This document shows positions 6,795 to 23,312 of a DNA stretch of 28,203 bases, piece after piece; the stretch's first letter is position 1, and every line of letters begins with the position of its first letter. Below the pieces are notes generated by a model. It was not told the origin of the DNA, searched no databases, and saw only the letters and a program-made list of their open reading frames with translations. The position numbers and the translations under genes were made by a program. Source of the DNA: a virus; IMG/VR virus record IMGVR_UViG_3300025592_000050, positions 1 through 28,203 of that record. One strand, given 5' to 3'.

Positions 6795-9700
6795 TTAATA
6801 ACCAACTGCTATATAATTAAAATTCTTCTCAGGTCGCCCATCTGTACCATACAACTGATTTAAAGAATTATATATAGCTACAGAGAATCCTGAGTTATTT
6901 TGATTTGTTAAGTTCCAATAGTCCCCGGTACTAAGGTCACTTACTGTTAATCCCACGCTGGGGCCTGTTTTAAAGTCTTGGTCAAATACTACATCTTTTA
7001 TACCCGAAACAGTACTAATGTTATACGCTCGCGCTGTTCTGTCTGGCATATCTATTGTAGTTCTTAATTTAGTTACTACAATATTATGGTTGGGGTCTGC
7101 TGTAAATAACTTTAATCTAAATTTATAGGCTCTCGCACTATAATCCCCAATATTAAAGGGGGTCCAAGAATCCCATAAGGGGTTAGGAATACTTGGGTCA
7201 TCAGAGGTGGTAGATACTTGAAGCTGTACATCTGCATCAGATACATCACCTCCATCAAATTTACCACTATTTGAATCAAACAATCCAGAAGCTGTATCAA
7301 AAGTAGTACCTACATCTGTAGTATATACTGCAAGATCAGATGTAACTCTAGAAGTAAACACTTGGCCTAAATCAACAGGATTAGTACTAAAGTTATAATA
7401 ACCTAAGGTTTTAACTAAACTAGCTCCAGGGGTTACAACTCCATAATCATAGGAATCTATAGCAGTTATACTTTCATTCTGTAAATCTACTCCGGGTTCA
7501 TCAAAGTCGTGTATTCCCGAAGTGTTCTCACTACCTCCTCCAATAGATACTATAGTGGAGCCCGATAAGGAATCTGATAGTGGGATTCCTATACCCCCTT
7601 TTGGCTCTATTATATCTACTATACTAGTAATAGTACCTTTATCTAATATAGTAGAAGTCGCGGTTAAGGATCCTAAGTCTTCAGGTGTTTCCATAGATTC
7701 CGCAGAATAATCTGCATCAGTAATTTCAGCTAGCCTCAAAGTACCATTCTGAACCGTAGTATCTGAGTGATCCCCTAAAAACTGTATATCTTCAACATTA
7801 CTATGTACAGCATTTAAAGACATCATAGTAGCTACATTTGATTTAGCCGCTACAGCATTTACAGATTCATTTCCTGAGGAGTCATATGCTTTTATTAAGT
7901 AAGAACCTGCTAATAGAGGTACCGTAGTAGAGGAGGAGCTACCCCCTATTTTTCCACCAATATCAGTACTACCTGCCCAAATAGGGTTAACTATAGCATT
8001 ATTATATCTAATTCTATAGTAGCCTCCATTAATTACATCTAAGTCAGAGTTACTTGTGGGTCTATCCCATGTAATAATAGCATTATTTCCCACGCCTACT
8101 AAATTTAAGCCCGTAACATCTGAAGGTAAGGTTTGCTTACCATTTAAAGTCTTTTGGAGGGTTACCCAACTAGAGAATTTACCTAGAGTATTTTCTACTT
8201 TTACTCTTACACTATAAATACCTGCGGGGGTGCTATCTATCTCTACATAACTAGATTGTGTAGAACCCGCACTTAGCCAGTTAGATGTAGCATTTTTATA
8301 CTCTATAACATAGTTTTTCTCATAAGGATAACGACTATTTCCATTGTAAATCGGGTAATCCCAACTAACTACCATCCTATTGTTTACAGACTTATTAGGG
8401 TTTAAATACAGTTCTTCTTGAATATCTAAATTATTAATAGAAGGTACAGAGTCTGAAGGACTAGGTAGTGAATTTATAGTTTTGTCTTGTAACGATACTC
8501 CTGATTCAATATAATTATATTTAGAACCATTGTACTCTAAAGCTGTTACGGTATACTCGTTCTTATGAGACTCTGCAATTGCTAAAACTCTAAAATCTTG
8601 AGTTTCAGTTATCCCGATCTCGTCGAGTACCCACAAGTGTTGTGTAGTGGGGACTACCGAAAAGGCTGAGGAAACTTCGATAGCTAGAACATTGGTACTA
8701 TCTAGTATATTAGTAACATCTTTTGTTTCTACAGATGTATAATCCTGCCATTGACCACTAGCATTAACACAATCTTCCTGTGTAGTGTACGCACTACTGA
8801 CTTCACTATTTAATATGCAAGTAGGGCTGGTTCTCATAATACTTAAGGTATAAGAATTTGTAGTATCAGTACTTAGAGGGTAATCTAAACATACTAAAGT
8901 ATTACTGGTAGTTCCCGAAGCATTGGAGGCTGAAACTCTTCCTCCCATACGTTTTCCTGCGCGAGCGGGGTCTGCTATTTTTACTAAATCTCCTGGTCTT
9001 AAGGATGCCCCATCTAAGCCAGTTTTGAAACTTATAGTATCTGTTTCTAGTCTCTCAGAGTACAGAATCCATTTACCAATTCTGTGAGCTTGAGCTCTAG
9101 AAGTACACCCAAAGGCTATGACATCAGTCTGTCTAACACCCCACTTAGTAATACCGGAGCGGTCCTCTACATACTCTATATTTCTTCTATAAAAATCCTC
9201 TGGGTTATTCCAAGTAACTAATGCAGTAGTATGTCGAGCTTTCTTCGCTGTCCCTGAGTAAGTAAAATCACCCCCTATTACATTAGCCTCACTAAATAAC
9301 ATTATAGGGTCTTTAGGGGAATCTTGGACTGCTGTAAGCATTCCTTGACCCCAGTAGGTCATACCTCTAAACACTGAAGCCATATCCGTTATTATTTTTA
9401 GGGCTTCATTTTGGGTTTGAATATATAAGTTTAAAGCAAATCTCTTTTCTTTAGCTCCAAAGCCATCATCAACACCTAAAAAAGTTCCAGATGCGTCAAC
9501 AGCATCACAGTATCTAGCTATTTGGTATAAAGCCCACTTATCAATATGAGTTTCCGGAATATAAGCTCCGAGACCATATCTTTCATCTGTCAATATATCA
9601 TAATAACACCAAGCGGGGTTATTAGTCCAAGCAGTTTTGAAAGTACCATCCCAAGCGCCCGAGTATAAGTTAGTAACTCCTGTCTCTAAAGAATCTGTAT

Positions 9701-11006
9701 TATTATAATTTGTAGGTACTCTTACTTTTAAACCTTTTATATCGTAAGCTCTATTAGGTATCCTAGAAAACTGTTTAGCGTCTATCTGAAGACCTACTAA
9801 AGCACTATTTGGGTACGTGAACTTATTATCAATAATTTGAGTATAGGACTGCCAGTACAGAGAGTTTTGTGTAGATAAATCTGCCGCATCGTCTGTAATT
9901 CGTTCTACTTTTATAGTCACTACTGTAAAAGAACCACTTAAGTTTATTCGATGTTGTCTCTCATACTTCTTAGTAGTTTTTCCTTCCATAGTAGATTTCA
10001 CTCTTTCTACAAAACTACCACTATCGTACTTAATATACACTTTATAAGACACAGAACTTCCATGCATATCTCCAGTTTCTTTATTTTGTACAGTTAAAGA
10101 AGGAGTATATAAAGTTACAGAAACTGCATCTAAGTTAGGATTATTTATAGATCTAACTATGGGTCCGGGGGCGCCTTTCTTTAATTGAGTACCTACGGCA
10201 ACTCCAGACTCAACGCTAGTAAAACCTCCTACATACGTTTGACTCTGTTGCCCCGTTCTTTGTTCCCAACTAACATCTTCGAAGTTATAAGAGTTATCAC
10301 TATTCTGCAGTGCTGTTTCGTTTAAGTATATAGATTTAGCACCGTCTACCAAACCCTCAATTTCACCTTCGCATATTAAATCTAGTACTCTAGCGTTAGC
10401 TTTAGAAAATAAAGAATCTGGGTCCTCTTTAGCAGGCTGCCCGGCACCACCTCCTTTACCTCCCCCCTTACCCCCCATTACAGGTATATTATTGGAAGCT
10501 AGTTGGTATGCCTCTCCGGAATCCCCTCCGTTATGTACTCTTATACCGTTAGCTATAAAAGTTTTAAATTCTTTTACAGTAATATTATATACAGTACTAC
10601 TAGTAGATACTTCTGCAATATCTTCAATAGGTAGTAGGGTACCTGAGTCACTAACTAAAGCGTCTTCCTTTGTTAAGTCTCCCACCCTCTGAAAAGTATT
10701 ATCTTCTCTTAAGAACCAGTGGTTAAAAGTAGTATAAATTACCCCTAACCAATGTTTGATACGCACTACAGAGTGGTCTTCATGCTTGTGTGTAGAAGCG
10801 ACTGTACTAGTATGTATAGTACCCTCTACAGAAAAACAAAATACTTCATCACCTACACTTAATTCTTCAATTTTCGTACTACCATAAGGAGTAGATACGA
10901 GAGTCCCTGCCGAGAAGCACCCTTTGGAGCCTCCAATAGCTCTTTCTCTAAGTAAGGGGCCCTCGGTATTCCATTCTTTTATATGTTTATAATCTTCGTT
11001 GTTCAT
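6795..11006 (-). CDS. J: Tail tip attachment protein (lambda J-like) with an N-terminal intein-like Hint domain, 1403 aa
   Basis: From Met177 onward the protein follows lambda J: a Gly/Lys-rich start (MGGKGGGKGGG), LDLICEGEIEGLVDG, WQSYTQIIDNKFTYPNSALVGLQ, SGAWDGTFKTAWTNNPAWCYYDILTDERYGLG, DKWALYQIARYCD and FGCTSRAQAHRIGKW. This central tip hub initiates tail assembly and contacts the receptor. Residues about 855-1065 look like two fibronectin type III domains. A Cys/Trp motif insert lies at 730-753. Residues 30-159 form a Hint domain, so the J body begins about 176 residues later than in lambda. No Shine-Dalgarno precedes Met177, so one fused polypeptide is likely. The ATG overlaps the upstream stop (ATGA). 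The C-terminal 250 residues are beta-rich and probably receptor-facing. Confidence 0.93.
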   Translation of the reverse strand: MNNEDYKHIKEWNTEGPLLRERAIGGSKGCFSAGTLVSTPYGSTKIEELSVGDEVFCFSVEGTIHTSTVASTHKHEDHSVVRIKHWLGVIYTTFNHWFLREDNTFQRVGDLTKEDALVSDSGTLLPIEDIAEVSTSSTVYNITVKEFKTFIANGIRVHNGGDSGEAYQLASNNIPVMGGKGGGKGGGAGQPAKEDPDSLFSKANARVLDLICEGEIEGLVDGAKSIYLNETALQNSDNSYNFEDVSWEQRTGQQSQTYVGGFTSVESGVAVGTQLKKGAPGPIVRSINNPNLDAVSVTLYTPSLTVQNKETGDMHGSSVSYKVYIKYDSGSFVERVKSTMEGKTTKKYERQHRINLSGSFTVVTIKVERITDDAADLSTQNSLYWQSYTQIIDNKFTYPNSALVGLQIDAKQFSRIPNRAYDIKGLKVRVPTNYNNTDSLETGVTNLYSGAWDGTFKTAWTNNPAWCYYDILTDERYGLGAYIPETHIDKWALYQIARYCDAVDASGTFLGVDDGFGAKEKRFALNLYIQTQNEALKIITDMASVFRGMTYWGQGMLTAVQDSPKDPIMLFSEANVIGGDFTYSGTAKKARHTTALVTWNNPEDFYRRNIEYVEDRSGITKWGVRQTDVIAFGCTSRAQAHRIGKWILYSERLETDTISFKTGLDGASLRPGDLVKIADPARAGKRMGGRVSASNASGTTSNTLVCLDYPLSTDTTNSYTLSIMRTSPTCILNSEVSSAYTTQEDCVNASGQWQDYTSVETKDVTNILDSTNVLAIEVSSAFSVVPTTQHLWVLDEIGITETQDFRVLAIAESHKNEYTVTALEYNGSKYNYIESGVSLQDKTINSLPSPSDSVPSINNLDIQEELYLNPNKSVNNRMVVSWDYPIYNGNSRYPYEKNYVIEYKNATSNWLSAGSTQSSYVEIDSTPAGIYSVRVKVENTLGKFSSWVTLQKTLNGKQTLPSDVTGLNLVGVGNNAIITWDRPTSNSDLDVINGGYYRIRYNNAIVNPIWAGSTDIGGKIGGSSSSTTVPLLAGSYLIKAYDSSGNESVNAVAAKSNVATMMSLNAVHSNVEDIQFLGDHSDTTVQNGTLRLAEITDADYSAESMETPEDLGSLTATSTILDKGTITSIVDIIEPKGGIGIPLSDSLSGSTIVSIGGGSENTSGIHDFDEPGVDLQNESITAIDSYDYGVVTPGASLVKTLGYYNFSTNPVDLGQVFTSRVTSDLAVYTTDVGTTFDTASGLFDSNSGKFDGGDVSDADVQLQVSTTSDDPSIPNPLWDSWTPFNIGDYSARAYKFRLKLFTADPNHNIVVTKLRTTIDMPDRTARAYNISTVSGIKDVVFDQDFKTGPSVGLTVSDLSTGDYWNLTNQNNSGFSVAIYNSLNQLYGTDGRPEKNFNYIAVGY
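10530..10919 (-). other. Hint (intein-like) domain inside the J gene
   Basis: This covers J residues 30-159. Block A is Cys30-FSAGTLVSTPYGSTKIEELSVGDEV. Block B is T-T-F-N-H with His96 in the T-x-x-H pattern. The end is VYNITVKEFKTFIANGIRVHN, with His158-Asn159. There is no room for a homing endonuclease. The residue after Asn159 is Gly160, not Cys, Ser or Thr, which resembles bacterial intein-like (BIL) domains that cleave rather than splice by the standard route. Confidence 0.88.
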
Positions 11007-11680
11007 GGTACATAGTCCTCTGAGTACACTCCAGCACTAATTACAGCACTTCCAATTGTTAATCTTCCATAGCATATAGGTACAGGAACACCTTGTCTAC
11101 TAGTATTTATAGGACCATCAAAGTGGTAAGAAGGTAAGTTATCTGCATATTGGTATTCCCCTCGAGGCTTGGGCTGAGGCGCTAGAGCTTGAGATATACC
11201 TCCCAGCATCATAGAAACTCCAAGTTTTGCTATCATACCATTAGTTACCCCCATTCCTAGCCCTCCCGCGAAGGGCATACCCCAACCACTAATTCCTGAG
11301 ACAGATATTGCTTCAAAAGATACTGCTTCAAAAGCGGCAAATTCTGCAGCAGAACCAGGTGCTATTGCACCCATTGCAGGCCAAGCTGCCCATATTAAAA
11401 CCGCCCCTAATATTATTTTAAATGTGGAACTTTTTGAACCAGAAATTACTGGTACTATTTTAAATACTTGAGCACCTAAAGGATCCGTTAACTGTAACTC
11501 GTCAATAGACTTCTTGCCTACAAAGACTTGATAGCCTTTTAGGTCCTTTAATAAATACTCTCTGAAACCTCTTAAGTTTACATCTAAAGCTCTAATTGCT
11601 TCTGACGGATTACTTATATCTAACTTAAAAGACTTACCAAATTTCTCTCCCAATTCACCATATAGTTGTATAGATTTCAT
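11003..11680 (-). CDS. Tail assembly protein I-like, second copy, 225 aa
   Basis: It has the same layout as the gene just upstream. There is a beta-grasp-like N-terminal domain (IQLYGELGEKFGKSF, about 1-80), a hydrophobic Gly/Ala-rich middle (about 90-165, IILGAVLIWAAW and GGLGMGVTNGMIAKLGVSMMLGG), and a C-terminal signature: ALAPQPKPRG, YHFDGPINTSRQGVPVPICYGRL, then SAVISAGVYSEDYVP. The C-terminus is nearly identical in pattern to its neighbour, so this is a tandem paralog. It starts with an ATGA overlap on the upstream gene and overlaps J the same way. In lambda, I acts with K, L and J to build the tip and is not kept as a major virion component. The hydrophobic core may interact with membrane or with the tape measure tip. 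Confidence 0.85.
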   Translation of the reverse strand: MKSIQLYGELGEKFGKSFKLDISNPSEAIRALDVNLRGFREYLLKDLKGYQVFVGKKSIDELQLTDPLGAQVFKIVPVISGSKSSTFKIILGAVLIWAAWPAMGAIAPGSAAEFAAFEAVSFEAISVSGISGWGMPFAGGLGMGVTNGMIAKLGVSMMLGGISQALAPQPKPRGEYQYADNLPSYHFDGPINTSRQGVPVPICYGRLTIGSAVISAGVYSEDYVP

Positions 11681-12300
11681 GGTACATAATCTTCAGAGAA
11701 TACACCCGCACTAATTACCGCAGCACCTGCTATCATACGCCCATAACATACAGGGACCGGAAGCCCTTGTCTGGAGGTAGAAACAGGCCCATCAAAATAA
11801 TAAGAAGGCGCATTATCTGCTGTAATAGTTTCTGGAGTCTTAGGCTGTGGCGCAAGCATTTGAGCAGCCCCTTGAAGGGCTAAACCTAAACCGAATTTAG
11901 CTACATCTCCATATGAGAAGCCTCCAAAAAGCCACTCAGTTCCACCAACTGTTTCGCCCCAAGCAGCTTCACCCCCTATTGCTGGTGCAAAATTCCAAGC
12001 ACCCCAGATCATTAAAGCTCCAAAGATAAGTTTACCTAGTCCCCCTTTTTTTGATCCACCAACTACAGGGATTATTTTAATAGTGTTTCCGAAAGCGGGG
12101 TTACTTATTTGTGTTAAACTGTAATTATCTGAACCTACTCTTATTTCATAGTATTGATCTATATTAGCTAGGTACTTAATAAAAGATTTATTATTTGCAG
12201 AGATACCCCTAAGAGCTTCTGCAGGGGAGTATATATCTAAAAACCACTCTTTTCCGAACTCTTTTCCGAGTTCCCCATATAGTTGTATTTTTGTTAACAT
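11677..12300 (-). CDS. I: Tail assembly protein I-like, first copy, 207 aa
   Basis: The N-terminal domain (KIQLYGELGKEFGKEW ... NTIKIIPVVGGSKKGG, about 1-85) has the beta-grasp character of lambda I. A Gly/Ala/Trp-rich hydrophobic stretch follows (LGKLIFGALMIWGAWNFAPAIGG and later FGLGLALQGAAQML). It ends with LAPQPK, YYFDGPVSTSRQGLPVPVCYGRM and SAGVFSEDYVP. It overlaps K by seven bases and the second copy by four. Its position between K and J is exactly that of lambda I. Having two intact I-type genes in a row is the unusual point. Both keep all the recognisable blocks, so neither looks like a decaying copy. Confidence 0.88.
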   Translation of the reverse strand: MLTKIQLYGELGKEFGKEWFLDIYSPAEALRGISANNKSFIKYLANIDQYYEIRVGSDNYSLTQISNPAFGNTIKIIPVVGGSKKGGLGKLIFGALMIWGAWNFAPAIGGEAAWGETVGGTEWLFGGFSYGDVAKFGLGLALQGAAQMLAPQPKTPETITADNAPSYYFDGPVSTSRQGLPVPVCYGRMIAGAAVISAGVFSEDYVP

Positions 12301-14339: not shown

Positions 14340-17300
14340 TTACCTCGTATAGTTATTTAGCATGCCGCCATATCTCTGTTGATCTAACAGCTCTTGTCTT
14401 ACTGCACCCGCTATCATATCTCCTAGTTTATCACCGAAGTCCTTCATTTGGGAAGTATCTTTACCTCCACCAGACTGAGCTACATTTACGTCTGCCTTAC
14501 CATCTGAAGCCACATTAACAGAAACGTTAATAATAGGAGCACCCTTACCTAGCGCTTTTCCTCCTACAATAGTAACAGGAAGTGGTTTGTTTAATGGTAT
14601 AACCGCTTCAGGACCTGCCTCGCCAATAATAGTGTTAGTAGGCTTCCCAACTATACCACCTTTAGCTAACATAGTGGGTTCTCTCCAGGAAGCAGGCACT
14701 CCCTCGGGGGTCCCTCCTATAGCCTGTCCCACCATACCACCTGACTGGCCATAGTGTGTAGTTAAATTAGTAGGTGTAGAAACCGCATTGGAGAAGAACG
14801 CATTCCCAAATATCTTTCCTAAACCAAAAGGTAAGTTACTATCAAATAACGCATTCACGCTACTTAATGCAGCCGTATTAGCATCACTAGATAATGAGTT
14901 AGAACTTCTAAAGTACCCTGCGTTATTCATATCCTCTTTACTGCTGAAGTGTTGTAATTCTGAAGATCTAGAGGCTCCGGGTCTTCTCCATCTACCTTGT
15001 TCCTCTGTCTCAAATCCGGAATCAGATACGCTATAGGAGTCAAACTGATTAAACATATCTGCCGCAGGACCTAAACGTCCTAATAATTCTCCAATTAAGG
15101 GACCTACAGGACCGAAGCTATCTAAAGCCTTATTAGACTTTTTAACCTTGTAATTGCCATATAGATTACTATGGTTTGGCCAATTTATACCTCCGTCAGC
15201 ATAACCTGTTGACATACCTTCAACTTGTTTTAAGGCATCTCCACCAAGAGGAACCGTCTGTCCTGTTTGAAGTTGTGCAGATAAGCCCCCTTTATTATCC
15301 ATAACGGTTGGAATAGACCTACCATCGGGCATAGGTACAATAGCTTCAGGGAACTTGCCTTCACCTACTACACCTAAAGTGGGTTTATTAACAGTTCCGC
15401 CATCTGCAAAGGCTTTAAAACCTCCAGGGAATACAGCCCCATTTGCTGCAAATAACGAGTCAAACATCCAATCCATAGTCTTATCAGCAGCTTTATTAGC
15501 TAGAGAGTTTATAATAACGTTACCCATAGCCATGGTGAAATTGGCAAAAGTTTGTTTAAGATCAAAATTACCTGTTTTGATTGCCGTACCTATACTTTGT
15601 GCTAACGATGCAGATCCGACATTAAATACCCCTTCCGCGGATACTCCCCAGTCTGTTAACGTTTTACCTAATGTAGAATTATTTATTTTATAAACTTTTG
15701 CTAAGTTATCTTTAGAAACAACATCAGCTTTCTGACCTTCCTCTAACCCTGTAACTACCGCTCCCCCTCTTTCACGGAAAGTGTTATCAAACTTATTATA
15801 CCATATATCTAGCTCGTTTACGTGTTTGTTATTTAAGGTGTCTAATGATTTAAGATACGCAGCCGAAAGGTTACCTTTTTCTTCAAGCCACCCCTTCGCC
15901 GCCTCACTACCTTCCGGAGAGTTCTCTATTATGTCTCTAATATTTCTAAAAGTATTATAGAGGTTACCTACCTGCTCTTCTATAACACCCTGTATATTCT
16001 CGTCATGAACGTATATAGAGCCTTTCTTAAGTCCCGCCTCTGCTAATTTATCTTGGCTAGATGCATCTGGAAGTAGTCCTCCCATATCTTTTGTAGTTAT
16101 ACCCATACTCGCATTAAACTTATCTTCATCGCAGGTCCAAATCTTATACTTCACGTACTCATAAGCTTGAATTATAGTACTATATATATCTTCTGCTAAA
16201 TTATTAGGATCGTAGCTAGAAGTATCAGTAGATATTCTATCCTCTATACTACTCTTAGCAGTTTGTGCTAATTCAAGCATTTTTAAACCTACAGCATCTC
16301 CTATATCGGAAGCACTATTTATAGTACTAGTAGCTACTTCAGAAATTAAATTCGTAGCTTTAGGTATCCACACCTCTGTAGCGCTTACACCCTCACTTAT
16401 CATTTCTTTCCAAGAGGTATCTTCCTCCTTAACTACTTTAGTTTCTTCTAGTAACTGGGAACTTGCTCTTGATATTCTAACTAGAGTTTCGGCTTTACTA
16501 TCATCACCTTCGTTGAGTTTACCTAACTCCTCAAGTATTTTCTCTTGAAGAGAGGAATCATCCCGTTTTTTAGGTTTGTCAGAACTAAACCAATCAAATC
16601 CAAAGAATTCAGGTAAACCCGTGTTAGGGTTTATAGTGCCTGAACCTCCTAAAGATTTTAGTAATGCTTGTTCGTCTTTATTAATATGAGCTAACTCAGA
16701 ATCTCCGTTACGTCCTAAGGAAGCTAAGCCCCCATTAGAGAAGCCTCCTGCGAAGTTTAATAGACTATCTAAGATACCCTGCTCCTTAGGCTTCTCCTTG
16801 AACATAGTAGGATTAAAGTTGTATAGTATCTTTTTCGTCTCTCCATTTAATATACTACCGTGTTTATCAAATAGTTCCTGGGCATCTGTTCTGTTACCTA
16901 AAGTCTTAAGCAGATGAGCCATATAAGCCTTCTGTCCCAACTTGTCTGTACTTAATAAACTAAAGTCCTGGTTCGCCTCTTGGGCCTGACTAATATAGGC
17001 TACTTGCTTCGCCCCTATATAGTCTATAGTACTTTTTGGACCAAATTTAGTACCTGCAAAGTTTCTTAGATTTTTAAAGATTCCAGCATTAGCTAGAGCT
17101 TCATCCAAGTCTCTGGAGTGCTTAATTATAGAATCTAGTTGATAAAATATTTTAGCAGTACTTGTATTAGCTAGTTCTGCCCCCGTATCATAATCCCTAT
17201 GAGAGCCGCCATGTAACTTAAGTTTTGGAGTTGGGTTTTTATTAAAGGTTCTATTCTTTCCGGCTAACCACATCCAACCAGCTCCTGATGCGGCTAATCC

Positions 17301-20300
17301 ATTTAAATGTGTATCCATAGCATGGGCTGCAATATCATTTATTATATTTGTGGCGTATATAATATTCCCACCCGTCGAATCAATATCTACCCTGTCTGTA
17401 GAGAAATTATCTAATCCATAATCCCAGGCCTCTTTCATATCCTTATTAATACTTCCATGTACTTTAAAGGTACTACTACCGTCTAAGTACTTAGCATACT
17501 TTGCAGGTATAGGAGTAGGTGTTTGAGCAGGTGTTTGAGCCCCTAAAGAACCCCCCTTTGCAAACCCAGGGAGCTTATCTTCATTAATAGCTTCAATTAG
17601 CGCTCGGTGCTTCCCAGTAGACGCTGCATTGATTACGTACTCACCATTAGAGAGCATTGCGGGGATTTTATCCTCTTTTGGACCACCAGGTCCTGTGATA
17701 GACCCGCCAGTTGCCCTATTAACTCCAGCCCAAGGGTTATAGGTAGGAGTATCTGGAGCTCCTGGAGTACGTGGATTATAATCCTGCCAAAAAGTTTGTA
17801 AAGCGCCAATTAAATCATCTAGTTTACCTACTAAAGTATCTGCTATAGTGGTTTTTAAATCTGTAATACTATTGGCTATAGCTAAAGAGTCTAGGTCTTT
17901 TAAAGAAGTGCCTAGTGTCTTCATGGCTTGTACACTTGCGGATAACTCTACAGTGTTATCAAGAACTGCATTTAAAGACTTCTCTGCTTGTGCTTTTGCA
18001 AGTTCTGCGCTGATTCGGGCTTCTTGTTCAGGGGTCTTACCTCCCTCATTAGCAAATCCTGCCATAATTTGGCTCTGTCCTAGTACCATTAGGTCTTGAC
18101 CCTGCTGGATTAGTGAATCTCCTAAAGATCCCCACATAGTGTCTACTAAATCCGCAGCCCAGATAGTGCCGTGCTCTTCCCAGTTTTCCATAGCTTTTTG
18201 GTTAACAGTACGGAAAGAATCTACAGAAGCCTGTACCATAAATTCAGCAAAGGAAGACATGCTATCCTCCATTTCCTTAATAGTATAAAACCACTCATCT
18301 CTTACAGTTTTTGCCCATTCATTACCATTTTTCATGCGGCGTTTATGTGCAGCTTCCTGGTCCTCGTAGAAACTTTGCTGTAAGTCTCTTAGCTCTTCTT
18401 GCTTCTGATACTCTAAACCCATTAACTCTAGAGTTTTAATTCTATACTCCAAGTCATCTGAATTATACTGACCTCTCTCTTTTAGGAGTTTTGATCTATC
18501 TCTCTCACGACTCTGTTCTGCTGCTAAAAACTTAAGAGACCTGGCTTGTACCAAGTTTTCTTCTTTGAATAACTGGGACTTAGTGTCTCTTTGAGACTCT
18601 ACTAAAGATAGGTATGCTTCAGTTGTACTTATCTGAGCATCGTACATTCTCTGTCTATTTTCCAGTACTTTATTTATACGATTCTCTTCCTGAAGGATCG
18701 CAACATCTAAGTTATAAATAGTACGCAGATGTACTGCCTCTTGTTGCCTTTCTTCAGCAGTTTTTTCAGATAAAGCTACACGTACCTTCTCAGCCTCATA
18801 CACCTCGCGTAGGCGAGCAATTTGCTGTAGTTCTAATGTAGTATCTGCTTTAATTCTATTGCCAGAAGCATTGGCTTCTAGCTCTATTAAAGACTCCGTT
18901 CTACTTCGAAGTTCTTCTTGCTTATTAAGTGCTGCATCTACATATTCTATCTTACGAGTATTAATGGCCTGACGTCGTGCATCCTTAACTATTTCAGACT
19001 GGATATCTAAATACTTTTCTTGTAGGGTATTCTTGGCTGTTTGTAGCTCTACTTGGCGGTTATACTCTTCAGTAATATAACTAGTATCCCCTTTCTCTAG
19101 ACTTAGATTAGTTTGATACTTAAGTTGTAAATTGTTTAGCTTCTCCTGGTGAGTCGCCTGCTGTACTAAGAGATTATTAGCTAGAACTTGCTCTATATTA
19201 ATACTGGTTGCTAAACTCTCTATCTGAGTTCTTAAACCTAAAAGAGCTCGGTTTCCTTCTAACTCTTGATTTTTTAATTTTGTAAGAATCTTTAGGTTTT
19301 CTACATTTACATTCTGGTAACTTTCCCGTATCTTAAATATTTTTGTTTCTAAGCCCAGTATAGCAGCTTGTGTACTTCTTATCTTTTTAGCATCTTGCTT
19401 ATCCTCATCTACAGAAGTTAAAGCTGCTAAAATAGCACGCCTATTTTCCAGCATTTGGTTGTGGTGCTCTAATTCCTTAGATACAGCAGTATTATGAGAT
19501 GCTGCTGCTCCATTCAACAAACCAATTTCTTTCTTATTCCTTGCTAATCTTTTAGCTAATCTGGTTTGATTCGCTAAACTTAGTTCTATAGCTCTGGCAT
19601 CTAATAGAGCTTTTAGATTGTAACCTTTCTGCTTTGCTAATAACTTATTAACCTCTGTTAGTGGTCCTTCTTGCCACTCTTCTTTATCAAAAGTTCTAGC
19701 TTTAGTACGTGGGTCCACTAAAGGGGCATTAAGCTTCTTACCCATCTCTATTAAGGTTTTGTATTGTTGCTCAGCATTTTTAAAAGCATTGGTACGTCCC
19801 AACCAGTCATCTTCAGGTTTCACCTTTATAGCTTCTAAACTATTATTGAAGTTCTCCAGAGCTTCAATCATACCGTCAAATATAGAGACATTTTTAAAAC
19901 CTTCTTCAAACGTTTTATACTCTTTATTAAACGCTTTTGAGGAATCTACAGCACCTCGGGTATTACCCGCAAGTAGCTTCTGGCTCTTCGAAACCTTCAT
20001 TAAACCTGCAGAAGCTATTTCTGTCACTTTTCTAAGCTCACGCAGAGTAGCAGTTTCAGATTCAGTGATCTGTTTAACTCGCTCTTCTGTTAACCCCAAA
20101 CTCTCCCACTCTAATCCACTAGTATGTAGTGATTCGCCTAAACTAACAAAGGCTTCTTGAGAGTCTTCTAACACGGAGCTCCCCATATTACCCCACATTT
20201 CATTTATACTCTTATCTAATTCAGAACTATTATCAATAAAGATACCTTGTTTAGCTGTAAACTCCTCAAAAGAGGCAGCTAAATTAGAGGTTCTATTAGC

Positions 20301-22475
20301 AGTATGTTCTGCTGCAAGTGCTACGGAGTTTAGAGACCCGTCTGAGCTCTGTAAAGTTTGCATGTACGCCCGGTATTTTTGATTCGTATCTGTAAAAGTA
20401 TTTTGTAGGGTTTTAAATGCCTCATCTACCTCTGAAGCGTTTTGGGTAGATAGCCCTGTAATTTTTAGAAAAACGTCCCCCACTATCTGAAGAGTACCCG
20501 CAACGGATATTACCTTCAAAGCTGTTGTTACTAAGGTGTTTAGTGCTGTGGTTAATGTACGAACTGCTAAAACTACAGAAGTAGATATTGTAGTGGCCCA
20601 TCTCTTCCATATAGTTATTCCATGCATCTGCGTAGTGTGTAAAATATCCATCTGTTTATTTATATTTTTAACACCTCTAATAAAGGACTTGAATACTCCT
20701 GACCCTTTACTTATTTCACTATAGTAATCTTTTAATACAGAACCACTAGCTGACTTAGCAACTGCGCTGCTATATAGTTTTCTAGCCTTCCCTTTACTTA
20801 TGTACCCAGCCTTTCTAGACGCTATTACGGACTGCTCTACTTCATCCGTATTAATAGACATTTGCTCTGCTTTACTCTTCCACTCCTTAGATAGGTTTCC
20901 TATACTAGGCACTACTTTATTACCTAAATAAGATATTAAAAGACCAAAAGAAGTCATCATAGCAATGGGGGATTTAGCCACTATATCTAATGCTGGAGAT
21001 AGTATAGAATTAAAAGCTCCTCCCACATTTAAAGCCATATCTGTTACTTTAGAGGATAACACATCCCATTGGTTCGGGTCCATAGTATCATTTAAATGAC
21101 CAAACTTATCTAAAGCCTGACCTGTAGCAAACTCCATAATAGCCATCTGCTTCTCAAATGTTGTCATAGAAGACACAGATTTATCATTAGACTCTGCCCA
21201 GGCTTCCTGCGCATCTTTAAGTCTTAGAATAATACCTAATTCATCCAGTAACTCTGGCTCAGCCTTTACTACACCACGTGTCATTCTATCTAAAGCGTCG
21301 GGCACATTACGTCCCAAAGCTAAAGCCGCTACTTTGGCGGCTTTACCCATTTTAATTATATCGTCGGAACCAAAACCTGCAGCAGAAGCTAAAGTAGCAG
21401 TATCTGCAGCTTCTTTATAAGTTACGGCCATATCTGTAGCACTCTGGAGTTGTTTAGCTACAATACTTAAAGATAGTCCTGTAGTTTTTCCATACTCTGC
21501 CATACCTTTTTTCATCTGAACTAAGTTTGCTGCTTCTCTTAAGCCTCTAAAAGCTGCTCCAAGAGCAAATACTTTAGCGGCATAATCTGCGTACATAGCA
21601 ACAAAGCCTCCCATACCCGAAGCCATTTTCCCAAAATCGCGACCAGCGGCTCCGGAAACGCCTGCTAAACCTTTCTCCCCTTTATTATACTTGCTGGTAT
21701 TTCTAGAATTTCTATCCTGTTTAATCCCGGAGAGTGCGGCCTGACCTGCACTCCTTTTCTCCTCTACAGTTCTTCCAGAAGCTACCGCTGCCCTATATCT
21801 ATTATGCTCTTTTTCGTTAAGACTTTCACCCCTAACTACTCTAAGTTCTCCAGCATGAATCTCCCCTCTAGAGGCTCTGGCTCTCTTCACTTCTTGCATA
21901 GTAGCTAGTCTAGCTTTAGAACCTTTTTTCATAGTACGACCAATAGTAGTAATCAGTCTCTCCAAATTCTTATTTAGAAGATTCATTTGAGCATTAGATC
22001 GTACAGCTATATCTTTCTGACTTTTAAAAACTCTAGCCATATCTGTAAACTGACTTTCAAACTTAGATTCGTGTGCACCGATGGCTTTAGTAGTACCTGC
22101 TTGCAACACACTACCTATTCCCGGAGACCTTGCAGAATCCTTATAGCTTCGGGAAGATTCTCTTGAGTCTCTACCTGTAAGTCTAGCATTTAAGCGTATT
22201 CCCTTTGCCTCAATCAGCTTAATCTGTTGCATAATTGAGTTTTTAAAATACTTCTTATCTATTACTGCTTTAATTTTAAGGGACTTAGATCCTCCAGCAC
22301 CTAGACTAGCGAAAGCTCGTGATACACTTCTTTGGAATGAGGGTCTATCAACGGATAGCTTAACCTTACGGTTCTTCTTACCCGCTGCCTTATTTAATTC
22401 CTTTAAATCAGCTACAGTCTCTTTTAAACCTTTTGAGGTAACCTTAACTAATACTGTTTTTTTATTATCAGCCAC
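14340..22475 (-). CDS. Tape measure protein with an embedded ClpP-like domain, 2711 aa
   Basis: The start is GTG with GGAG six bases upstream. By position (after G-T, before M) and content this is the H-equivalent that sets tail length. Residues 1-270 are basic and helical. The stretch about 278-480 is the conserved tape measure core (FRGLREAANLVQ ... ALDRMTRGVV ... FEKQMAIMEFATGQALDKFG). Hydrophobic, possibly membrane-inserting helices lie near 500-525 and 625-675. Long Gln/Glu/Lys/Leu coiled coil fills roughly 940-1480. Typical C-terminal Gly-Gly motifs occur at about 1590 (GPGGPKEDKIPAMLSNGEYVI), 1915, 2355 (GVVGEGKFPEAIVPMPDGR) and 2605 (IIGEAGPEAVIPL). Residues 1668-1830 are a ClpP-like domain placed between these motifs. 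At over three times the lambda H length it implies a very long tail. Confidence 0.93.
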   Translation of the reverse strand: MADNKKTVLVKVTSKGLKETVADLKELNKAAGKKNRKVKLSVDRPSFQRSVSRAFASLGAGGSKSLKIKAVIDKKYFKNSIMQQIKLIEAKGIRLNARLTGRDSRESSRSYKDSARSPGIGSVLQAGTTKAIGAHESKFESQFTDMARVFKSQKDIAVRSNAQMNLLNKNLERLITTIGRTMKKGSKARLATMQEVKRARASRGEIHAGELRVVRGESLNEKEHNRYRAAVASGRTVEEKRSAGQAALSGIKQDRNSRNTSKYNKGEKGLAGVSGAAGRDFGKMASGMGGFVAMYADYAAKVFALGAAFRGLREAANLVQMKKGMAEYGKTTGLSLSIVAKQLQSATDMAVTYKEAADTATLASAAGFGSDDIIKMGKAAKVAALALGRNVPDALDRMTRGVVKAEPELLDELGIILRLKDAQEAWAESNDKSVSSMTTFEKQMAIMEFATGQALDKFGHLNDTMDPNQWDVLSSKVTDMALNVGGAFNSILSPALDIVAKSPIAMMTSFGLLISYLGNKVVPSIGNLSKEWKSKAEQMSINTDEVEQSVIASRKAGYISKGKARKLYSSAVAKSASGSVLKDYYSEISKGSGVFKSFIRGVKNINKQMDILHTTQMHGITIWKRWATTISTSVVLAVRTLTTALNTLVTTALKVISVAGTLQIVGDVFLKITGLSTQNASEVDEAFKTLQNTFTDTNQKYRAYMQTLQSSDGSLNSVALAAEHTANRTSNLAASFEEFTAKQGIFIDNSSELDKSINEMWGNMGSSVLEDSQEAFVSLGESLHTSGLEWESLGLTEERVKQITESETATLRELRKVTEIASAGLMKVSKSQKLLAGNTRGAVDSSKAFNKEYKTFEEGFKNVSIFDGMIEALENFNNSLEAIKVKPEDDWLGRTNAFKNAEQQYKTLIEMGKKLNAPLVDPRTKARTFDKEEWQEGPLTEVNKLLAKQKGYNLKALLDARAIELSLANQTRLAKRLARNKKEIGLLNGAAASHNTAVSKELEHHNQMLENRRAILAALTSVDEDKQDAKKIRSTQAAILGLETKIFKIRESYQNVNVENLKILTKLKNQELEGNRALLGLRTQIESLATSINIEQVLANNLLVQQATHQEKLNNLQLKYQTNLSLEKGDTSYITEEYNRQVELQTAKNTLQEKYLDIQSEIVKDARRQAINTRKIEYVDAALNKQEELRSRTESLIELEANASGNRIKADTTLELQQIARLREVYEAEKVRVALSEKTAEERQQEAVHLRTIYNLDVAILQEENRINKVLENRQRMYDAQISTTEAYLSLVESQRDTKSQLFKEENLVQARSLKFLAAEQSRERDRSKLLKERGQYNSDDLEYRIKTLELMGLEYQKQEELRDLQQSFYEDQEAAHKRRMKNGNEWAKTVRDEWFYTIKEMEDSMSSFAEFMVQASVDSFRTVNQKAMENWEEHGTIWAADLVDTMWGSLGDSLIQQGQDLMVLGQSQIMAGFANEGGKTPEQEARISAELAKAQAEKSLNAVLDNTVELSASVQAMKTLGTSLKDLDSLAIANSITDLKTTIADTLVGKLDDLIGALQTFWQDYNPRTPGAPDTPTYNPWAGVNRATGGSITGPGGPKEDKIPAMLSNGEYVINAASTGKHRALIEAINEDKLPGFAKGGSLGAQTPAQTPTPIPAKYAKYLDGSSTFKVHGSINKDMKEAWDYGLDNFSTDRVDIDSTGGNIIYATNIINDIAAHAMDTHLNGLAASGAGWMWLAGKNRTFNKNPTPKLKLHGGSHRDYDTGAELANTSTAKIFYQLDSIIKHSRDLDEALANAGIFKNLRNFAGTKFGPKSTIDYIGAKQVAYISQAQEANQDFSLLSTDKLGQKAYMAHLLKTLGNRTDAQELFDKHGSILNGETKKILYNFNPTMFKEKPKEQGILDSLLNFAGGFSNGGLASLGRNGDSELAHINKDEQALLKSLGGSGTINPNTGLPEFFGFDWFSSDKPKKRDDSSLQEKILEELGKLNEGDDSKAETLVRISRASSQLLEETKVVKEEDTSWKEMISEGVSATEVWIPKATNLISEVATSTINSASDIGDAVGLKMLELAQTAKSSIEDRISTDTSSYDPNNLAEDIYSTIIQAYEYVKYKIWTCDEDKFNASMGITTKDMGGLLPDASSQDKLAEAGLKKGSIYVHDENIQGVIEEQVGNLYNTFRNIRDIIENSPEGSEAAKGWLEEKGNLSAAYLKSLDTLNNKHVNELDIWYNKFDNTFRERGGAVVTGLEEGQKADVVSKDNLAKVYKINNSTLGKTLTDWGVSAEGVFNVGSASLAQSIGTAIKTGNFDLKQTFANFTMAMGNVIINSLANKAADKTMDWMFDSLFAANGAVFPGGFKAFADGGTVNKPTLGVVGEGKFPEAIVPMPDGRSIPTVMDNKGGLSAQLQTGQTVPLGGDALKQVEGMSTGYADGGINWPNHSNLYGNYKVKKSNKALDSFGPVGPLIGELLGRLGPAADMFNQFDSYSVSDSGFETEEQGRWRRPGASRSSELQHFSSKEDMNNAGYFRSSNSLSSDANTAALSSVNALFDSNLPFGLGKIFGNAFFSNAVSTPTNLTTHYGQSGGMVGQAIGGTPEGVPASWREPTMLAKGGIVGKPTNTIIGEAGPEAVIPLNKPLPVTIVGGKALGKGAPIINVSVNVASDGKADVNVAQSGGGKDTSQMKDFGDKLGDMIAGAVRQELLDQQRYGGMLNNYTR
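16986..17474 (-). other. ClpP-like (S14/crotonase-fold) serine protease domain inside the tape measure
   Basis: It covers residues about 1668-1830. FKVHGSI matches the first ClpP strand. Ser-Thr-Gly-Gly (1700-1703) matches the Ser-Pro-Gly-Gly oxyanion loop. GLAASGAGWMWLAGKNR carries Ser1730 at the nucleophile position, and KLKLHGG carries His1755. The Gly-to-Ser distance is 28 residues (29 in E. coli ClpP), and Ser-to-His is 25 (97 to 122 in ClpP). The IDYIGAKQVAYI segment fits the ClpP 'EAVEYGLVD' helix. The catalytic Asp position appears to be Gly or is shifted, so activity is uncertain. Confidence 0.82.
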
Positions 22476-22476
22476 T

Positions 22477-23312
22477 TTAAACTCCGGGAGGTACGCCTTT
22501 TTTCGCTTTCGCTTGGGCCTCGGCTACTTTCTTAGTAGCCTTCTGTTTTTTCTGCATTGCTTCAGATCTTCTTCCATCCATATAACGGATAAAGAATAAT
22601 GCTAATGCTTTATCTTCTAATTTATATATATCGCACAGTTCAGAGAACCCTGCCCAATCCTTACCCATATATGTTCCAGACATCCCATCCCATTTATCTG
22701 CTAAAGTATTATAAAGGGTGAAGTACTCTTGGATTTCTAGGGGGAACTCCTCCATCTCTGGAGGTATCTCTTCCTCACTAGGTTTAGTTCCTAGTTGCTC
22801 ATGAATAGCAAGGATCTTCTCTCTATCAAAATCCTGAGTGATAAATTTAAAGTATCTATCAATTAATTTAGTAACTTCAGCTACTTGGTCTTCGTAAAAT
22901 TTTGTAGGTCACCTACAACATCTGCTACGAAGCTATCAAAATCTGGGGAATTTTTCATAAGGAGGTAAGCATTTTCAGTACTGTAGTCTAACTCCGCGTT
23001 AGTATCTACATCCTCTAGCTCTACTAACATGAAGTCCGCTAGATACTCATACTTAAAGCCAGACCAACCCTTTATGACTGCCTCTACATACAGTTGTAGA
23101 AATAAATCATCATCTACTTCTTCCATAGGTTGACGTGTTTTTCTGTCAAATTTAGTACTAGTAGATTTCTTACGAAGCTTCATTAGTTCATCTCGGCCTA
23201 AAAAGGTTAGTTTCAAAATGAAATCTTTATACCCCGGGTAGTCAATATCTACTGTTTTAGAGGGGGTCATTAAAGACTCAAGACTTGGTTTAACTGCTGC
23301 AACCGTATTCAT
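22477..23312 (-). CDS. Tail assembly chaperone G-T fusion made by -1 frameshifting, 278 aa
   Basis: A -1 slip at A-AAT-TTT (22896-22902) changes ...GDLQNF-TKTK-stop into ...GDLQNF-YEDQVAEVTKLIDRYF and continues, without a stop, to 22477. The product has 139 residues from the first frame and 139 from the second. The T part ends in a Lys/Ala-rich tail (MQKKQKATKKVAEAQAKAKKG). In lambda the G-T protein binds the tape measure and recruits tube subunits, with T contacting the tube protein. An ATG at 22755 lies inside the T frame but is not a plausible independent start. The stop is one base before the tape measure GTG. Confidence 0.85.
22881..23312 (-). CDS. Tail assembly chaperone G-like, 143 aa
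   Basis: AGGA lies about eight bases before the ATG. The acidic, helical protein (VDIDYPGYKDFILKLTFLGRDELMKLRKKS, then DDDLFLQLYVEAVIKGWSGFKYEYLADFML and VADVVGDLQNF) resembles the G-type chaperones that precede tape measure genes. The GRDELMKLRKKS stretch and the central W-S-G-F/L element are characteristic. It is produced by normal termination at 22881, while a fraction of ribosomes shift at 22896-22902 into the T frame. It coats the tape measure before tube polymerisation and is not expected in the mature virion. Confidence 0.87.
   Translation of the reverse strand: MNTVAAVKPSLESLMTPSKTVDIDYPGYKDFILKLTFLGRDELMKLRKKSTSTKFDRKTRQPMEEVDDDLFLQLYVEAVIKGWSGFKYEYLADFMLVELEDVDTNAELDYSTENAYLLMKNSPDFDSFVADVVGDLQNFTKTK
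22896..22902 (-). promoter_or_regulatory. Programmed -1 ribosomal frameshift site (A-AAT-TTT)
   Basis: In the G frame the codons are CAA-AAT-TTT-ACG, so the heptamer A AAT TTT has the canonical X-XXY-YYZ form and re-pairs as AAA-TTT one base back. The T frame has a stop just upstream (22909-22911) and is open afterwards. A small hairpin (AGTAGC/GTTACT, TGAA loop, 22870-22885) starts ten bases downstream and includes the G stop codon; it may be a weak stimulator. Confidence 0.85.

Follow-up and report, generated by a model that had tools for sequence, protein, structure and literature searches.

A ClpP-like serine-protease domain predicted in an exchangeable cassette of a siphovirus tape measure protein

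Introduction

Enzyme domains inside phage tape measure proteins (TMPs) are already known, and one described case is gp17 of phage TM4, in which such a domain (mt3) lies in the C-terminal half of the TMP, right after a GGxxxGPG...NGE(F/Y)(I/V)xNA motif. mt3 is a demonstrated peptidoglycan-hydrolase domain containing W853, is not needed for viability and improves infection of stationary cells; in phages lacking the 114-residue domain the tails were about 20 nm shorter (PMC1796659). Here we report on an uncultured tailed phage that is represented in IMG/VR by 28203 bases (IMGVR_UViG_3300025592_000050, hereafter the window) and whose tape measure gene likewise carries a predicted enzyme domain in its C-terminal half directly behind such a motif; unlike mt3, this domain has the predicted fold of a serine protease, that of ClpP.

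Comparable arrangements have been described elsewhere. TMPs of the Baudelaire type in mycobacteriophages also hold an enzyme cassette after the motif, which recurs at the downstream end of the cassette, but there the enzyme is a cysteine peptidase of peptidoglycan and not ClpP. In the reconfigurable effectors of contractile injection systems (Sle1), which derive from tape measures, the functional domains at the C-terminus of a TMP-like carrier can be exchanged, yet the particles are bacterial and contractile rather than phage, and the part of that report on which we draw names no ClpP domain (PMC13277306).

On the protease side, the S14 phage head proteases (Flavobacterium phage lotta8 gp34, NF045542, PHROG 2976) share with the window domain the ClpP fold, the glycine loop, the GLxAS serine and the histidine that follows, with lotta8 gp34 being about 29% identical over 122 residues. 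They are encoded by separate head-module genes, however, whereas the TMP domain is internal, has no canonical Asp and occurs in a phage with an S78 head protease of its own. The ClpP of cells (E. coli, Listeria, Enterococcus) has the same fold and the same Ser-His spacing; the TMP domain differs from it in having no evident Clp ATPase partner, in the missing Asp and in being fused into a large structural protein.

Results

A ClpP-like domain within the tape measure protein

Window positions 16986-17474 on the minus strand encode TMP residues 1668-1830, in which an original prediction, made from the letters alone, had recognised the landmarks of ClpP in their proper order. All are where it placed them (Table 1), with GSI at 1674, GLAAS at 1726-1730 and LHGG at 1754, and the predicted catalytic Ser and His are exactly 25 residues apart, as in enterococcal ClpP (6cfd). 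For the loop spacing, its figures of 28 against 29 need a small correction: from the last Gly of the loop to Ser1730 we count 27 residues, compared with 29 in 6cfd.

We built a profile from ClpP-type head proteases of phages (12 proteins, all members of Pfam CLP_protease, with the query excluded), and it gave a single significant match to the TMP (residues 1689-1772, 46.2 bits). Against the isolated domain it scored 52.8 bits, so far above the best of 2500 shuffles (8.7 bits) that the resemblance to ClpP is not due to chance. Because the 12 proteins had been gathered by similarity to the query these scores are somewhat favoured, which does not apply to the library matches: NCBIfam NF045542 ('head maturation protease, ClpP-related') recognises the domain at an E-value of 8.7e-5, and the best PHROGs matches of the isolated region are head maturation protease families (PHROG 2976, E 0.003). 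By tblastn against phage records, the Flavobacterium lotta8 and pippi8 proteases were found (E 5e-5, 29% identity). A Pfam scan of the window domain gave no match, the gathering cut-off of PF00574 (CLP_protease) not being reached, while 12 out of 12 aligned relatives do match, and phmmer of the domain against the PDB returned nothing meaningful. At the level of sequence, the profile and library matches show the TMP domain to be related to the ClpP-type head-maturation proteases of phages.

Structure prediction agrees with this. An AlphaFold2 model from 13 sequences reached a predicted template-modelling score (pTM) of 0.67, with block means of the per-residue confidence (pLDDT) of 86-93 over the first 90 residues, and reproduces the secondary-structure order of ClpP including its long handle helix; it improved on an earlier model from 6 sequences, which was confident for the first 100 residues only. 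When the AlphaFold model was submitted to Foldseek, all of the top 50 structures listed were ClpP (best E 3e-9, TM-scores 0.65-0.70; top PDB matches at E about 1e-9 to 1e-8). As ClpP-type head proteases were part of the input alignment, model and homology are not wholly independent lines of evidence, and the C-terminal part of the domain is its least confident region. On this modelling we regard a ClpP (S14, clan SK) fold as very probable. That a ClpP-fold domain is buried in a tape measure between Gly-Gly motifs, as had been proposed, is supported.

As for the active site, homologs without conserved Ser1730 and His1755 had been named as a refutation, and both residues proved conserved in each of the 13 aligned sequences. 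The third catalytic residue had been called unclear: its position can now be located and is taken by Lys1823, and of the 12 phage relatives five have Asp there, while seven have L, T, K or E. Catalysis by a Ser-His dyad or with a different third residue is possible, and so is loss of activity; on balance we incline somewhat towards an active hydrolase.

Exchange of the cassette at two boundary motifs

The domain had been described as looking inserted, and a related phage supports this. Two contigs (L035, L037) were found by a search with the TMP region that precedes the domain. L037 comes from a related phage whose tail chaperone is 71% identical at the DNA level and most of whose TMP gives no DNA alignment with the window. 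Two near-identical islands, about 98% at the DNA level, stand out at window positions 17717-17554 (164 nucleotides (nt), 97.6%) and 16735-16609 (127 nt, 98.4%), and between them L037 holds a 231-residue cassette (L037:8166-8858) unrelated to the 272-residue ClpP cassette of the window. With near-identical islands around unrelated cassettes, recombination at the boundary motifs is the parsimonious reading, and insertion of the ClpP cassette as an exchangeable module of the TMP C-terminal half is well supported by these alignments. For the alternative cassette, searches of Pfam, NCBIfam, PDB sequences, phage records and further viral contigs gave no recognisable relative. L035 follows the window up to the cassette border (99.8% over 9046 nt) and then runs into 50 nt of the L037 cassette; we set it aside as proof of a swap within one phage population since it may be a genuine variant but equally an assembly chimera across 75 identical bases.

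The G+C content of the ClpP cassette is 0.385, against 0.394 for the TMP gene as a whole. Among the seven sister contigs compared, the cassette has zero codon differences, and a selection test on it is therefore impossible. Relatives of the right motif (consensus GRxGDxxLAHIxxxEAxxLKxxGGSGTINPxTGLPE, or more narrowly GRxGDTxLAHINPxEAxxLKxxGGSGTINPNTGLPE) occur in about 230 viral contig stretches (including L069-L145), mostly in other open reading frames of 200-1200 residues and usually near the N-terminus, and also within a protein of phage DSL-LC04 that is annotated as a tape measure.

The slot in other phages and the search for similar fusions

A total of 446 phage records contain the left motif (GGxxxGPG...NGEYVxNA...FAxG), and most of the listed ones are annotated as tape measures; we inspected the region that follows it in 13 sampled motif-bearing records. 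In TM4 it directly precedes mt3, with Trp853 at the expected number; in Baudelaire a Pfam NLPC_P60 domain lies in the region after it, while Larva and Eponine carry, as judged by eye, a TM4-like and an NlpC-like domain, respectively. In several of the sampled phages the TMP ends soon after the motif. By position and by motif, the window TMP has its enzyme-fold domain in the TM4-type slot behind GG/GPG...NGEY.

Three scans with ClpP patterns and one with a DNA pattern for GLAASxAGWxxLAG showed no other fusion of ClpP into a TMP among the viral contigs that they reached, nor was there any in genome contigs; these scans used short conserved patterns, which diverged relatives may escape. Neither tblastn against phage records (120 matches listed, without a feature annotated as tape measure) nor the best 50 BFVD structures gave another one, and a literature search found no paper that describes a tape measure with a ClpP domain. 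One BFVD candidate, gp20 of Cellulophaga phage phi13:1 ('putative tail protein'), combines a pyrophosphatase with ClpP, is followed by a structural-protein gene and was rejected as most likely a head protease. Within the limits of these searches the original remark that no described tape measure carries its own ClpP-fold protease holds, and so, as far as we could find, the ClpP fold in a TMP is new in the literature and collections searched, enzyme domains in tape measures as such being already known.

Head maturation in a sister contig

A sister contig from the same phage (G004, 30162 bases) extends to terminase and portal and encodes a 644-residue protein in which a Peptidase_S78 domain is fused to major-capsid sequence. 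There is no second ClpP in this contig, the TMP being its sole ClpP-like match. Head maturation, having its own unrelated S78 prohead protease, needs no ClpP, and the TMP domain is not a separate head-module gene acting on the prohead. In the same contig (L178, G004:C1:1-9500), four open reading frames with homing-endonuclease-associated HNH repeats are interspersed among the terminase, portal and capsid genes; it is possible that they drive local recombination.

The tail module

The main genes of the window are all on the minus strand and arranged as in lambda: the head-tail adaptor is followed by neck, tail terminator, major tail protein and tail chaperone G, then by the tape measure, M, L, K, two I copies, J and fibres. 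The reading frame at 14340-22475 is long, follows the G/T chaperones and matches TMP profiles, and its neighbours identify it as the tape measure in a siphovirus tail module of lambda-like type. gpK has both JAB and NlpC/P60 domains, so that a peptidoglycan cutter exists without the ClpP-like cassette. Further towards its C-terminus the TMP has a second variable segment (Table 1), and three sister contigs (L002, L004, L006) diverge from the window at 15499, with a different TMP C-terminus and diverged following genes.

G and G-T (window 22476-23312, minus strand) have the canonical layout: as read from the sequence, a candidate slippery heptamer (A AAT TTT) lies a little upstream of the G stop, and the T frame reaches the start of the TMP. 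By its appearance G-T is a usual product of -1 frameshifting, and the earlier suggestion that the ClpP-like domain might cut it is not supported.

Other features of the module are recorded here for completeness. The lambda I-like tail assembly gene is present as two tandem diverged copies (11003-11680 and 11677-12300, minus strand), both matching PHROG 32 and about 69% identical in DNA over 193 nt. The tail-tip protein gpJ (6795-11006, minus strand) has an N-terminal Hint/intein-like domain at residues about 30-160 (PT-HINT E 4e-8, Hint_2 E 8e-5), which begins with CFSAGT, ends with VHN-G and is possibly a self-splicing or self-cleaving element. A C-terminal stretch of J (7530-7703, minus strand) has no match in sister contigs L001 and L005.

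Table 1. Features of the tape measure gene in the window
Feature	Position	Strand	Remarks
Tape measure protein (TMP)	14340..22475	-	2711 residues, GTG start; PHROG tail length tape measure 9e-43 and 7e-21, plus lambda-like neighbours
Left boundary motif, residues 1587-1641 (RATGGSITGPGGPKEDKIPAMLSNGEYVINAAST...GFAKG)	17553..17717	-	97.6% DNA identity over 164 nt to L037
Exchangeable cassette with ClpP-like domain, residues 1642-1913	16737..17552	-	272 residues; unrelated 231-residue cassette in L037
Predicted ClpP-fold core, residues about 1669-1826	16998..17471	-	AlphaFold2 pTM 0.67, Foldseek, profile hidden Markov model 46.2 bits
STGG, ClpP glycine loop, residues 1700-1703	17367..17378	-	Ser and both Gly kept in 13/13 aligned sequences
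Ser1730 (GLAAS), predicted nucleophile	17286..17288	-	Invariant, 13/13
His1755, predicted general base	17211..17213	-	Invariant, 13/13; ClpP-like spacing of 25 residues from Ser1730
Lys1823, at the canonical catalytic Asp position	17007..17009	-	Alignment and model least certain here
Right boundary motif, residues 1914-1956 (GGLASLGRNGDSELAHINKDEQALLKSLGGSGTINPNTGLPE)	16608..16736	-	98.4% DNA identity over 127 nt to L037
Second variable C-terminal segment, residues about 2415-2591	14703..15232	-	530 bp; absent in sister contigs L001, L003, L005

Discussion

Our findings that the ClpP-like domain sits in an exchangeable cassette, and in the slot that TM4-type phages use for peptidoglycan hydrolases, may be accommodated by a model that sees it as a virion-carried serine protease acting at host entry rather than as an obligatory means of self-processing. 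To this model we assign a probability of roughly one half, and an entry-stage function taken by itself seems to us about an even bet. Being part of the TMP, the domain would be carried inside the tail tube, leave the tail with the TMP at ejection, refold in the host envelope and there cut envelope proteins, or proteins that interfere with entry, by means of a Ser-His dyad or an unconventional triad. Since the slot is the same as that of the TM4-type cassettes, we propose the same delivery logic for the ClpP cassette, and cassette exchange points to an accessory, host-dependent function rather than to an essential step in assembly. Action on the host envelope was one of three options that the original prediction had offered, and it is the one that we infer to fit best.

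Several points weigh against this model. The third catalytic Asp of ClpP/S14 proteases is missing from the TMP domain, Lys1823 being aligned in its place. The L037 cassette is without recognisable enzyme signature, and most of the 13 sampled motif-bearing records have no recognisable enzyme after the left motif. Enzymes of the ClpP family as a rule act in rings of seven or more subunits, and such a ring may not form from the few copies of a TMP. In addition, the domain must cross the tail lumen in an unfolded or extended state and then refold.

Among the alternatives, one could envisage that the ClpP fold is an inactive structural domain, i.e. an oligomerising or spacer module that adds tape length. 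The absence of the canonical Asp would suit such a role, ClpP folds do oligomerise, and the TM4 deletion with its shortened tails implies that cassettes count as tape (PMC1796659). A mere spacer would, however, need no active-site motif, whereas Ser, His and the glycine loop are kept in 13 of 13 sequences, and related head proteases of phages in which the Asp is likewise missing can be presumed to be active; to our minds, the spacer role is therefore rather unlikely. We rate it as improbable, too, that the domain is a processing protease of tail assembly, cleaving the TMP or some other tail protein and so providing the C-terminal trimming known for some tape measures. In favour of this, it stands in cis, ahead of the C-terminal third of the TMP, and resembles proteases whose known role in phages is the maturation of structural proteins, and C-terminal cleavage is known for the lambda tape measure gpH. 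Against it speaks the unrelated cassette in the L037 slot, by which the domain cannot be obligatory for this tail type, so that self-processing, another of the options first offered, is not supported as a requirement; nor did the analysis identify a cleavage site.

That the TMP domain substitutes for a head-maturation protease is suggested by its nearest relatives, which are just such enzymes, but appears highly improbable given the S78-type prohead protease fused to major-capsid sequence in the sister contig, which has no second ClpP. A head-protease gene misjoined into the tape measure gene would be conceivable, as the assembly is metagenomic and L035, ending 50 nt past the cassette border, may itself have been joined wrongly through 75 nt of exact match; this we consider the least credible option since the in-frame fusion recurs, at 100% protein identity, in seven separate viral contigs, some of which read through on both sides, and since the G+C content of the cassette (0.385) matches that of the TMP (0.394).

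Coming back to the model of a protease delivered at entry, a bolder version may be entertained, though we think it doubtful: the TMPs of this phage group would contain a plug-in site with two recombination-competent motifs at its sides, and one of the plug-ins would be an active ClpP-fold protease, injected into the host envelope and there removing host proteins that stand in the way of DNA entry. It would be the first ClpP-type protease to be delivered by a phage. The enzyme domains described in TMPs so far are, as far as we found, cell-wall hydrolases. If true, a ClpP-fold domain in the slot would extend them to delivered proteolysis and the C-terminal half of the TMP would be a general payload bay. 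The boundary motifs offer a handle on this, as the region after the GG/GPG...NGEY motif may be mined, in the TMPs of other phages, for delivered enzymes that have so far gone unrecognised.

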